In this document: positions 31,738-33,489 of the stretch, piece after piece | Numbering within the stretch: the first letter of the stretch is position 1 | How the letters are laid out: every line of letters starts with the position of its first letter | Assembly: GCA_902523095.1 (NCBI GenBank) | Contig: CABYYE010000008.1 | Span: 1-34,425 of the forward strand | Reading direction: 5' to 3' | DNA: 34,425 bases | Source of the DNA: an uncultured Pelagibacteraceae bacterium | Lineage (GTDB): Bacteria; Pseudomonadota; Alphaproteobacteria; Pelagibacterales; Pelagibacteraceae | Made by a program: the position numbers and the translations under genes | Notes under the pieces: model-generated | What the model saw: only the letters and a program-made list of their open reading frames with translations | The model's database searches: none | What the model was told of the DNA's origin: nothing

Positions 31738-33048
31738 TTAAGCCACGTAAAAACTCATTACACTTAAAATAGCAATAACCCAAATAGCAGGCGAAGTTTT
31801 GAAGAACTTGCCTGACAAAATTTTGATTAAAGCATATGAGATAAAAGCTAAGGCTATCCCATTACTAATACTGTAAGTTAATGGCATTGTTATCATAGCT
31901 ACTACTGCTGGCCCTGATTCTGCAATATCATCCCATTCAATATTTGTAATATTTCTTACAAAAAGAATTGCTACATATAAGAGTGCAGCCCCATCAATTT
32001 CTTTTGGTAGGCTTGTTGCTAATGGAGAGAAAAACAAACAAGCTAAAAATAAAACTCCTATGACTAAAGAAGTCATTCCTGTTCTTCCGCCTGCTTTTAC
32101 GCCAGCTCCAGACTCTACATAACTTGTTACTGTTGTTGTTCCCATTAATGCACCAGCTACTGTTCCTACACTATCCGATAACATAGCTTTATTGATATCT
32201 TTTACTTTACCCTGTTTATCAACTTTTCCAGCAACGTTAGCAACTGAAGTCAGAGTTCCAGCCGTATCAAAAAAATCGATAAATAGAAGAGTAAAAATGA
32301 TAGTCGACATTCCTGCTGTAAAAGCAGCAGTTAAATCAAAATCAAAAAGGTATGTCATTGGTGGTGGCATATCTACAATACCATTAAACTTTGCTAATCC
32401 TGTAAGCCAAGCAATTATACTGAAAAGTAGGATACCAATAATAATGTTTCCTTTGATTTTCATTTTTTCTAGAACAATCATTACCACAAAAGCTAAACAA
32501 CCAAGTATAACTAACGGGTTTTTAATATCACCAATGGTCACTAACGTAACAGGATGATCACCTACAACACCCATTATTTCTAATCCTATTATTGCTAAAA
32601 ATAATCCTATCCCAGCACCTATACCCAACTTGAGGCTTTTAGGAATTGAATTAATTAACCATGCACGAATTGGAGTTAATGAAATTATAAGAAACAAAAC
32701 TCCTGCAACTAAAACTGCACCTAGAGCAGCTTGAGGTGTGTAACCCATACCTGCAACAACTCCAAAAGCTACAAAAGCATTTATACCCATACCAGGAGCC
32801 AAACCTATTGGCCAAGTTTTACCGTAAAACGCCATTATGAAACACGCAATAGCAGTTGCTACAATTGTTGCGGTGAAAACCGCCCCAAATTCAAAAAAAC
32901 CCTTTTCAGGTCCTGCGAATTCACCTGAGAGAATAAAAGGATTTAAAAACATTATGTAAGCCATTGTAAGAAATGTCGTTACCCCGGCAATTACTTCGGT
33001 TTTAAAATTTGTCTTATGTTTTTTGTACTCAAAATATTTTTCCATCAT
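31738..33048 (-). CDS. NCS2 purine permease (AzgA/GhxP-type)
   Basis: Inner-membrane nucleobase symporter with about 12-14 hydrophobic segments. It starts MMEKYFEYKKHKTNFKTEV, then GVTTFLTMAYIMFLNPFIL. The AzgA-type motifs APGMGINAFVAFGVV, IDFFDTAGTL and TTTVTSYVESGAGVKAGGRTG indicate hypoxanthine/guanine/adenine, not uracil. The start is set at 33048, because GGAGGT ends six bases upstream. The frame stays open to 33129, but that would read through the ribosome binding site. Product is 436 residues. The long leader contains a hairpin and an 18-base dyad. The purine PRT converges on it. Confidence 0.92.
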   Translation of the reverse strand: MMEKYFEYKKHKTNFKTEVIAGVTTFLTMAYIMFLNPFILSGEFAGPEKGFFEFGAVFTATIVATAIACFIMAFYGKTWPIGLAPGMGINAFVAFGVVAGMGYTPQAALGAVLVAGVLFLIISLTPIRAWLINSIPKSLKLGIGAGIGLFLAIIGLEIMGVVGDHPVTLVTIGDIKNPLVILGCLAFVVMIVLEKMKIKGNIIIGILLFSIIAWLTGLAKFNGIVDMPPPMTYLFDFDLTAAFTAGMSTIIFTLLFIDFFDTAGTLTSVANVAGKVDKQGKVKDINKAMLSDSVGTVAGALMGTTTVTSYVESGAGVKAGGRTGMTSLVIGVLFLACLFFSPLATSLPKEIDGAALLYVAILFVRNITNIEWDDIAESGPAVVAMITMPLTYSISNGIALAFISYALIKILSGKFFKTSPAIWVIAILSVMSFYVA

Positions 33049-33054
33049 AAATAG

Positions 33055-33120
33055 ACCTCCTATAAATTCTGAATACTCCGATTCGTTAAAAAAATCCCGT
33101 AAAATGTGGTTTTTTTTTAA
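33055..33120 (-). promoter_or_regulatory. Structured leader of the purine permease, with ribosome binding site
   Basis: On the minus strand the leader carries a hairpin in which TTAAAAAAAAACC (33120-33108) pairs with GGGATTTTTTTAA (33098-33086). It ends in seven T, then a small GAAT/ATTC stem, then GGAGGT (33060-33055). The hairpin resembles a weak intrinsic terminator placed before the ribosome binding site, as in attenuators and riboswitch expression platforms. It does not match the purine riboswitch consensus. Confidence 0.35.
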
Positions 33121-33124
33121 ATTA

Positions 33125-33142
33125 TACAACCTGAAGGTAGTA
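33125..33142. promoter_or_regulatory. 18-base dyad upstream of the purine permease
   Basis: TACAACCT-GA-AGGTAGTA has seven of eight positions complementary between half-sites. It lies between the divergent permease and lipoprotein genes, about 80 bases from the permease start. Length, spacing and symmetry are those of a dimeric repressor operator. The half-site TACAACCT also appears twice before dnaA. Regulator unknown. Confidence 0.4.
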
Positions 33143-33183
33143 TTTCTGTTTATAAGTTTTAGGTATAAATTGATATTTTATAA

Positions 33184-33489
33184 ATGATTAAAATTAAAAT
33201 ATTTTTTCTTATAACGATATTTTTTTTCTTTTTAAATTCTTGCCAATCTGTAACAAAAAAAATTGATGAAAAAGCTGCCCAAGAAGAGAGAGAATTGACA
33301 AAATGGTTAAACAAAAATGAATCAGACCTTAAAATTAGCTATGGACAGCCAGATAAAATTGAATTCCTGAATTCGAGGAATAGAAATTACGTTTACATCA
33401 GTAAAAAATTTAAGATTAAGTGTGAAAGAAAATTCGAAGTTAACCCTGATAATAAAATAATTGGATTTACAAGTAAAAATTGTTTTTAA
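33184..33489 (+). CDS. Small predicted lipoprotein, function unknown
   Basis: A 101-residue protein with a signal sequence (MIKIKIFFLITIFFFF) and lipobox LNSC, lipidated Cys20. The mature part has a short charged helix (EKAAQEERELTKWL). It is followed by an SYGQPDKIEFLNSRNRNYVYISKK stretch in two pieces (33 to 38 residues after the cysteine onward), which recalls the short two-layer fold of SmpA/OmlA-like lipoproteins. Two later cysteines (FKIKCERKF and the terminal KNCF) could form a disulfide. I do not recognise a named family. Its 3' end overlaps ptrB by four bases, and it is divergent from the purine permease. Confidence 0.7.
   Translation: MIKIKIFFLITIFFFFLNSCQSVTKKIDEKAAQEERELTKWLNKNESDLKISYGQPDKIEFLNSRNRNYVYISKKFKIKCERKFEVNPDNKIIGFTSKNCF

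Follow-up and report, generated by a model that had tools for sequence, protein, structure and literature searches.

A conserved dyad and a predicted sigma-70 promoter upstream of the NCS2 purine permease gene in Pelagibacteraceae point to a protein-binding DNA site and not to a riboswitch

Results and Discussion

We analyzed a window of 34,425 bases (the whole stretch of DNA under study) from an uncultured Pelagibacteraceae bacterium, and the DNA upstream of its NCS2 purine permease gene is most likely a protein-binding site followed by a promoter and not a riboswitch or an attenuator. We consider it probable that this region works as a DNA switch, made of a dyad operator and a weak sigma-70 promoter, with a bound factor that most likely activates the permease. 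In such an arrangement, the dyad at 33125 to 33142, together with the adjoining TTATAAACAGA block, would be the operator of a dimeric transcription factor inside a divergent intergenic region. A weak sigma-70 promoter (-35 GGGATT, -10 TATTCA) would start the permease transcript about 70 bp downstream of the dyad, just before the Shine-Dalgarno sequence. The factor would most likely activate permease transcription from this upstream dyad, and it may act as well on the divergent lipoprotein-like gene, whose predicted start is about 45 bp away. Among the relatives that we compared, the boxes are conserved, their positions are constant, the strong half-site of the dyad is exchanged between arms and RNA covariation is absent.

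Locus and comparative set

The permease gene (31738 to 33045, minus strand) codes for 435 amino acids if translation is counted from its second ATG codon; another ATG precedes it, at 33048 to 33046 on the same strand. Its product matches the Pfam family Xan_ur_permease (E 3.7e-50), and it matches NCBIfam pbuX only below the cut-off of that family. Homologues of the permease at E<=1e-60 were found in 117 of the 147 genomes of the family. The next gene downstream, convergent with the permease, codes for a phosphoribosyltransferase (PF00156; 31177 to 31701, plus strand), and the two resemble a purine uptake and salvage pair.

On the other side, 135 bp (33049 to 33183) separate the first ATG of the permease from a divergent ORF of 101 amino acids (33184 to 33489, plus strand), which by eye looks like a small lipoprotein and has no match in Pfam or NCBIfam. 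A tblastn match to this ORF (E up to 1) was found in 154 of 171 loci, some of which are duplicates or partial, and many of the loci fetched by place contain just part of it. The ORF stays divergent to the permease across much of the family. The preliminary description had taken 33049 to 33142 for an unusually long leader, but this piece lies within the 135-bp divergent intergenic region, and much of it is promoter-like DNA.

Leaders were taken from 80 named loci and from 60 further ones, which were fetched for 60 of the 87 family matches without a locus. All 171 loci yielded the permease, including two that represent the window itself. This gave 153 leaders that were unique and long enough, 152 of them with a recognizable Shine-Dalgarno sequence. 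The conservation and spacing counts exclude the 29 of 153 unique leaders in which RGTTGW is absent from its expected place, and the resulting set of 124 leaders, being chosen for RGTTGW, inflates the right arm of the dyad.

The dyad and its adjoining block

The dyad is present as first described. The plus strand at 33125 to 33142 reads TACAACCTGAAGGTAGTA, with two 8-bp arms around 2 bp that are complementary at 7 of 8 positions; the half-site consensus is ARGTTGWA, and the right arm corresponds to 33132 to 33125 on the minus strand. Taken alone, a dyad of such quality is near chance level, as the window contains 45 dyads of the 8+2+8 type with at least 7/8 symmetry and ten local shuffles contain 31 to 43, so the weight of this one comes from its conservation. 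Two of its positions, G33130 and G33127, are among the most strongly conserved columns outside the Shine-Dalgarno sequence in the set selected for RGTTGW.

The right arm matches ARGTTGWA better than the left in 113 of 152 leaders. Another group shows the reverse: 19 leaders carry a perfect TACAACTT on the left, their right arm fits at 3 to 6 of 8 positions, and just 3 to 5 of 8 RNA pairs could form across the dyad. The left arm of these leaders is found 12 nt (11 leaders) or 13 nt (8 leaders) after the start of TTATAAAC, the distance in the window being 13 nt. A strong arm that swaps sides between lineages is what would be expected of a DNA operator and not of a hairpin. With its two-fold symmetry, its conserved half-sites and a strong half-site on either arm, the dyad has the features of an operator for a dimeric factor, and we treat it as a putative one.

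The half-site scan reports the best match within 90 nt and misplaces the site in some leaders. Counting chance matches, 152 of the 153 leaders scored 7/8 or better somewhere. In several leaders of the window's genus (L023, L026, L027, L029, L030, L031, L060, and L105), the scan caught an upstream TAAAACTT or TTAAACCT and not the dyad. It gave no clear dyad in the g9 leaders L145, L148, L151, L154, and L159.

Beside the dyad, the conservation profile and the leaders reveal a conserved block (33143 to 33155), which reads TTATAAACAGAAA on the minus strand and TTATGGCA... in the HTCC7211 group. In that group (L112 to L120 and similar leaders), a palindromic TTATGGCATAA often stands in place of the TTATAAACAGA block, a swap that may mark a second subsite altered between lineages. 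One sublineage (L006 to L009, L011 to L015, and similar leaders) has GAATC directly behind the dyad (GTTGAATC) and GATTTAG downstream; in these leaders, GAATC is found there instead of before the -10 box.

Permease promoter and transcription start

The predicted -10 box of the permease is TATTCA (33070 to 33075, minus strand; TAWTTA in the family), and 17 nt before it lies the -35 region GGGATT (33093 to 33098, minus strand), a poor match to TTGACA that is replaced by AAGATT in many relatives. Columns in and beside the -35 region are well conserved (G33096, 0.96; T33093, 0.88; T33092, 0.92). Just upstream of the -10 box, the window has GAATC at 33080 to 33084 (minus strand); the GAATC of the family is aligned one base lower (33083 to 33079), and the mean pairwise identity of this region is only 0.50. 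The strong GGAGGT noted in the preliminary description is indeed found before the permease ATG, at 33060 to 33055 (minus strand), and this Shine-Dalgarno sequence is conserved.

The -10 box appears as a positional peak. Among the 152 unique leaders, TAWTHW is located 15 nt upstream of the Shine-Dalgarno sequence in 60 and 14 nt upstream in 23, so that 83 of 152 have a -10-like box at 14 to 15 nt, compared with 0 to 8 at other offsets. The aligned hexamer opens with TA in 120 of 124 leaders and fits TAWTHW in 89 of 124; in the set thinned to 80% identity, 27 of 49 fit. The box lacks its final T in the window and also in most relatives, and a missing -7T is described as common in alphaproteobacterial promoters (PMC8407463).

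The predicted transcription start (33063 to 33064, minus strand) was transferred from Pelagibacter HTCC7211, with 33063 counted from the -10 box and 33064 from the Shine-Dalgarno sequence. The table of PMC5069720 lists PB7211_1146, a "xanthine/uracil/vitamin C permease family protein," at 381310 to 382633 (minus strand), with 554 start reads and the ninth place in the start-read column (Table 2 of that paper). In the relative that we take as HTCC7211, the permease matches at 381313 to 382614, in agreement with the listed coordinates, and the listed end (382633) falls 13 nt before the ATG. This end would be the transcription start in the HTCC7211-like relative. We read the ends in the table as starts because the listed length of PB7211_1146 is not a multiple of three, because the listed start of glcB fits by eye the glycine riboswitch given in PMC5069720, and because 15 of 21 listed sites carry, at -16 to -10, a TA-hexamer that agrees with TATAAT at 4 or more of 6 positions, compared with 3 to 9 of 21 at shifted positions. 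The permease is not one of those 15, as its TATTTA at -12 to -7 matches TATAAT at 3 of 6 positions; the bacteriorhodopsin site in the same comparison carries an identical TATTTA. The HTCC7211 start comes from environmental reads mapped to a SAR11 genus other than that of the window, and by analogy the start in the window's strain would be at about 33063 to 33064.

Counted from the start so placed in the HTCC7211-like relative, the dyad is centered at -70.5. Of the 124 leaders, 113 have 48 to 50 nt between the dyad and the -10 box (38 of 49 once the set is thinned to 80% identity), and the sequence of the spacer (33124 to 33099) is nearly free, with an identity of 0.44 compared with 0.32 by chance. 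Constant length combined with free sequence is in keeping with spacing at the DNA level. In 11 of the 124 leaders, the spacer exceeds 50 nt, and the helical phasing of these longer spacers is partial, with lengths of 58, 59, 70, 71, and 79 nt that fit and lengths of 53, 54, 73, and 75 nt that do not. In the window's genus, TATAAA at 33154 to 33149 could be a second, upstream promoter with a longer RNA.

For the divergent gene, we predict a -10 box TAAATT (33166 to 33171, plus strand), which corresponds to TANNNT in relatives (112 of 124 leaders); TATAAA at 33164 to 33169 (plus strand) is an alternative register in the window sequence. As the predicted divergent start is about 45 bp from the dyad center, closer than the permease start, the putative operator may serve both the permease and the divergent gene.

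Sign of control

Activators usually bind upstream of the promoter, as at about -70, and a permease start near 33063 to 33064 would put the dyad at this usual activator position. The preliminary description had suggested a repressor at the dyad. Its protein-binding site stands as a putative one, but with the dyad at about -70, a repressor no longer seems the most likely role. Protein binding at the dyad, the sign of the control and the signal are all predictions made from the sequence.

A less likely alternative keeps the same operator and promoter but has the dyad bind a repressor, or serve mainly the divergent gene, with the permease following passively. Repressors can bind upstream of promoters too, and the dyad is nearer to the predicted divergent start than to that of the permease, both of which would fit this alternative; however, at about -70 the dyad does not overlap the permease core promoter, the distance that is held constant is the one to the permease -10 box, and the -35 box of the permease promoter is poor.

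It is quite improbable that the permease is transcribed constitutively, from a promoter preceded by an AT-rich (UP-like) region, and that the conservation merely reflects a shared, short divergent intergenic stretch. The intergenic region is certainly short, and the published table points to a high environmental expression of the permease, but the two dyad guanines are among the strongest columns (in the RGTTGW-selected set), the 19 leaders with a perfect TACAACTT fall outside that selection, and G and C would be superfluous in an UP-like region. Activation from the upstream dyad is the reading that we favor.

RNA structure

The preliminary description had also proposed that a hairpin ending in T7 attenuates transcription and that any ligand-binding RNA here would be of a different type from the known ones. 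The "hairpin" region (33081 to 33122, minus strand) consists of an A-rich spacer and the -35 region and is not a conserved RNA stem. On the minus strand, an A run and the T7 run (33094 to 33088) flank GGG, and the T run is the 3' arm of the predicted stem itself, with no tail after it. This 3' arm coincides with the -35 and spacer region of the predicted promoter, so GGGATT falls inside the hairpin and TATTCA just behind it. A scan of 32900 to 33300 found no terminator-like sites, and the locus has no G+C-rich hairpin followed by a T run, as an intrinsic terminator or attenuator would have. The single-sequence fold is not unusually stable either (z -0.34; 66 of 200 shuffles reach or exceed its stability).

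The RNA alignment comprised 47 of 88 representatives, all of the window's group type, and left out L095 and L100 (of the window's type, with longer spacers) and the other group types. RNAalifold found no consensus pairs in these 47 leaders. Pairing along the window's fold was no better than in shuffles, as 49.8% of cells are paired compared with 50.9% in shuffles, and 8 of the 18 pairs are changed on both sides somewhere compared with a mean of 8.4. The hairpin helix (11 pairs) forms in 38.9% of cells and the dyad helix in 66.6%, and in the latter no pair shows a two-sided change. Of the two elements, the dyad is conserved in relatives and the hairpin stem is not.

Rfam gave no matches at gathering score in the 34,425-base window, in line with the earlier remark that the hairpin does not fit the known purine riboswitch consensus. 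At E up to 10, the 301 bases from 32950 to 33250 gave three sub-threshold matches, to two snoRNA families and GcvB; there is no covariance-model match to a known riboswitch, purine included, and no sub-threshold match is a riboswitch. With no covarying structure by RNAalifold, pair counts against shuffles, the fold or Rfam, a structured RNA leader finds no support, and neither do the proposals of an attenuating hairpin and of a ligand-binding RNA of a different type. In the HTCC7211-like relative, the start that we read from the published table would lie downstream of the proposed RNA element, a statement whose scope is the clade of that relative.

It is very improbable that a long 5' leader carries a new attenuator or riboswitch RNA, for the conserved upstream block that occurs once per genome, the stems predicted in the window itself, the possible upstream TATAAA of the window's genus and the 8 of 18 pairs changed on both sides are set against shuffles that give as many such changes, no consensus pairs, a spacer almost unconserved in sequence, no terminator, no Rfam match and the downstream start in the relative.

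Comparison with known systems

Class I activator sites lie upstream of sigma-70 promoters, with CRP sites of the -61.5 or -70.5 type as examples. The permease element is similar to them in its two-fold symmetric dyad at about -70, its fixed spacing and its promoter with a poor -35 region. It differs from class I CRP sites in the second conserved block that adjoins the dyad and in having a cognate regulator that is only putative, and we also take the dyad sequence to be unlike the CRP/FNR consensus.

The family -10 box, TAWTTA, ends in A, a likeness to alphaproteobacterial sigma-70 promoters without -7T, for which a dependence on CarD has been proposed (PMC8407463); the text of that paper contains no occurrence of SAR11 or Pelagibacter. 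Riboswitches and other structured RNA motifs have been described in Pelagibacter ubique (PMC2704228). The permease element resembles these in that it precedes a SAR11 gene within a compact genome, but unlike them it has no conserved structure, and neither "purine" nor "permease" occurs in the main text of that paper.

Similar motifs at other loci

With up to 3 mismatches, the long motif of the window has a single match in the genome from which the window comes (75% complete), and the reversed pattern has none there. The 12 g4 genomes gave 26 matches, compared with 24 for the reversed pattern; the permease site, at up to 2 mismatches, accounts for 10 of the 26, and the other 16 have 3 mismatches. 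In 10 of these 12 genomes, the sole match with up to 2 mismatches is at the permease, and the remaining 2 have no close match. In 15 genomes of the window's genus, we found 125 matches, permease sites included, compared with 99 for the reversed-pattern control. In all 27 genomes scanned with a relaxed palindrome, the control pattern gave the larger number of matches.

The shorter ACAAYNNNNAGTTGW gave 33 matches in 6 genomes compared with 22 in the control, and 30 of the 33 were read as loci. The intergenic cases that recur involve an nrdA-like gene (6 of 6 genomes), amt (4 of 6, the paralogue in question being present in 5 of the 6 genomes scanned) and a DAHP-synthase-like gene (2 of 6). These scans suggest a regulon rather than demonstrate one.

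Upstream of the long AmtB, CA(A/C)T-N4-AGTTG(A/T) is found in 9 of the 9 genomes that carry this gene among the 36 surveyed (L279 to L287). It is placed between the stop codon of the upstream gene, just after it, and a variable stretch. This dyad is possibly a second site of the same putative regulator, and its likeness to the permease dyad hints at a nitrogen regulon. In 30 upstream regions of short amt paralogues read by eye, there was no clear copy of the whole motif; two of them, L216 and L220, contain AAGTTGTAAAAT.

Two other sites were observed in these scans. About 47 nt before the nrdA-like gene, 6 of 6 genomes have a palindrome, ACAACATATAGTTGT or ACAACATGTAGTTGT (L293, L297, L306, L307, L310, and L314, around 1501 to 1515, either strand). 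The gene behind it resembles, in our view, nrdA (ribonucleotide reductase), and the palindrome is possibly an NrdR-like box. In a single genome, L301 contains ACAACCTTAAGTTGT (about 1501, one strand), which is near the permease operator consensus with a center one base shorter and is flanked by what we take to be an aminotransferase-like gene and an ABC substrate-binding-like gene.

NtrX sites are given as CAAN2-5TTG in Sinorhizobium and CAAN3-5TTG in Brucella (PMC9223101), and NtrY/NtrX is reported in SAR11 (PMC13198564). The permease and amt dyads that keep both arms share with these sites a CAA...TTG palindrome, and both the permease and AmtB are nitrogen-related genes. The spacing, however, does not fall within the published CAAN2-5TTG, as it is CAA-N7-TTG for amt and CAA-N8-TTG for the permease consensus where CAA is present, and the window's group has lost the left CAA on the gene strand. 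We regard NtrX as a lead, a candidate regulator of both dyads. That a single dimeric regulator, possibly NtrX acting on half-sites spaced more widely than in other alphaproteobacteria, reads AGTTGWA before both the permease and AmtB across SAR11 is a tentative idea that we consider rather doubtful. If true, it would make a small nitrogen-scavenging regulon, in which the uptake of intact purines is switched together with that of ammonium.

Significance

We found no prior report of the permease operator-promoter element in the open-access literature that was searched. A purine transporter and a phosphoribosyltransferase have been called universal or nearly so in SAR11 (PMC11698098); the same source names an MFS permease too, so its purine transporter may not be the NCS2 permease described here. 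SAR11 genomes are described as holding few regulators (PMC13198564), and with few regulators and several known riboswitches, each regulated promoter in this group is informative. By locating a likely operator and a likely start upstream of the permease, the analysis removes a false riboswitch lead, and it provides a short DNA element on which nitrogen or purine sensing in SAR11 can be tested.
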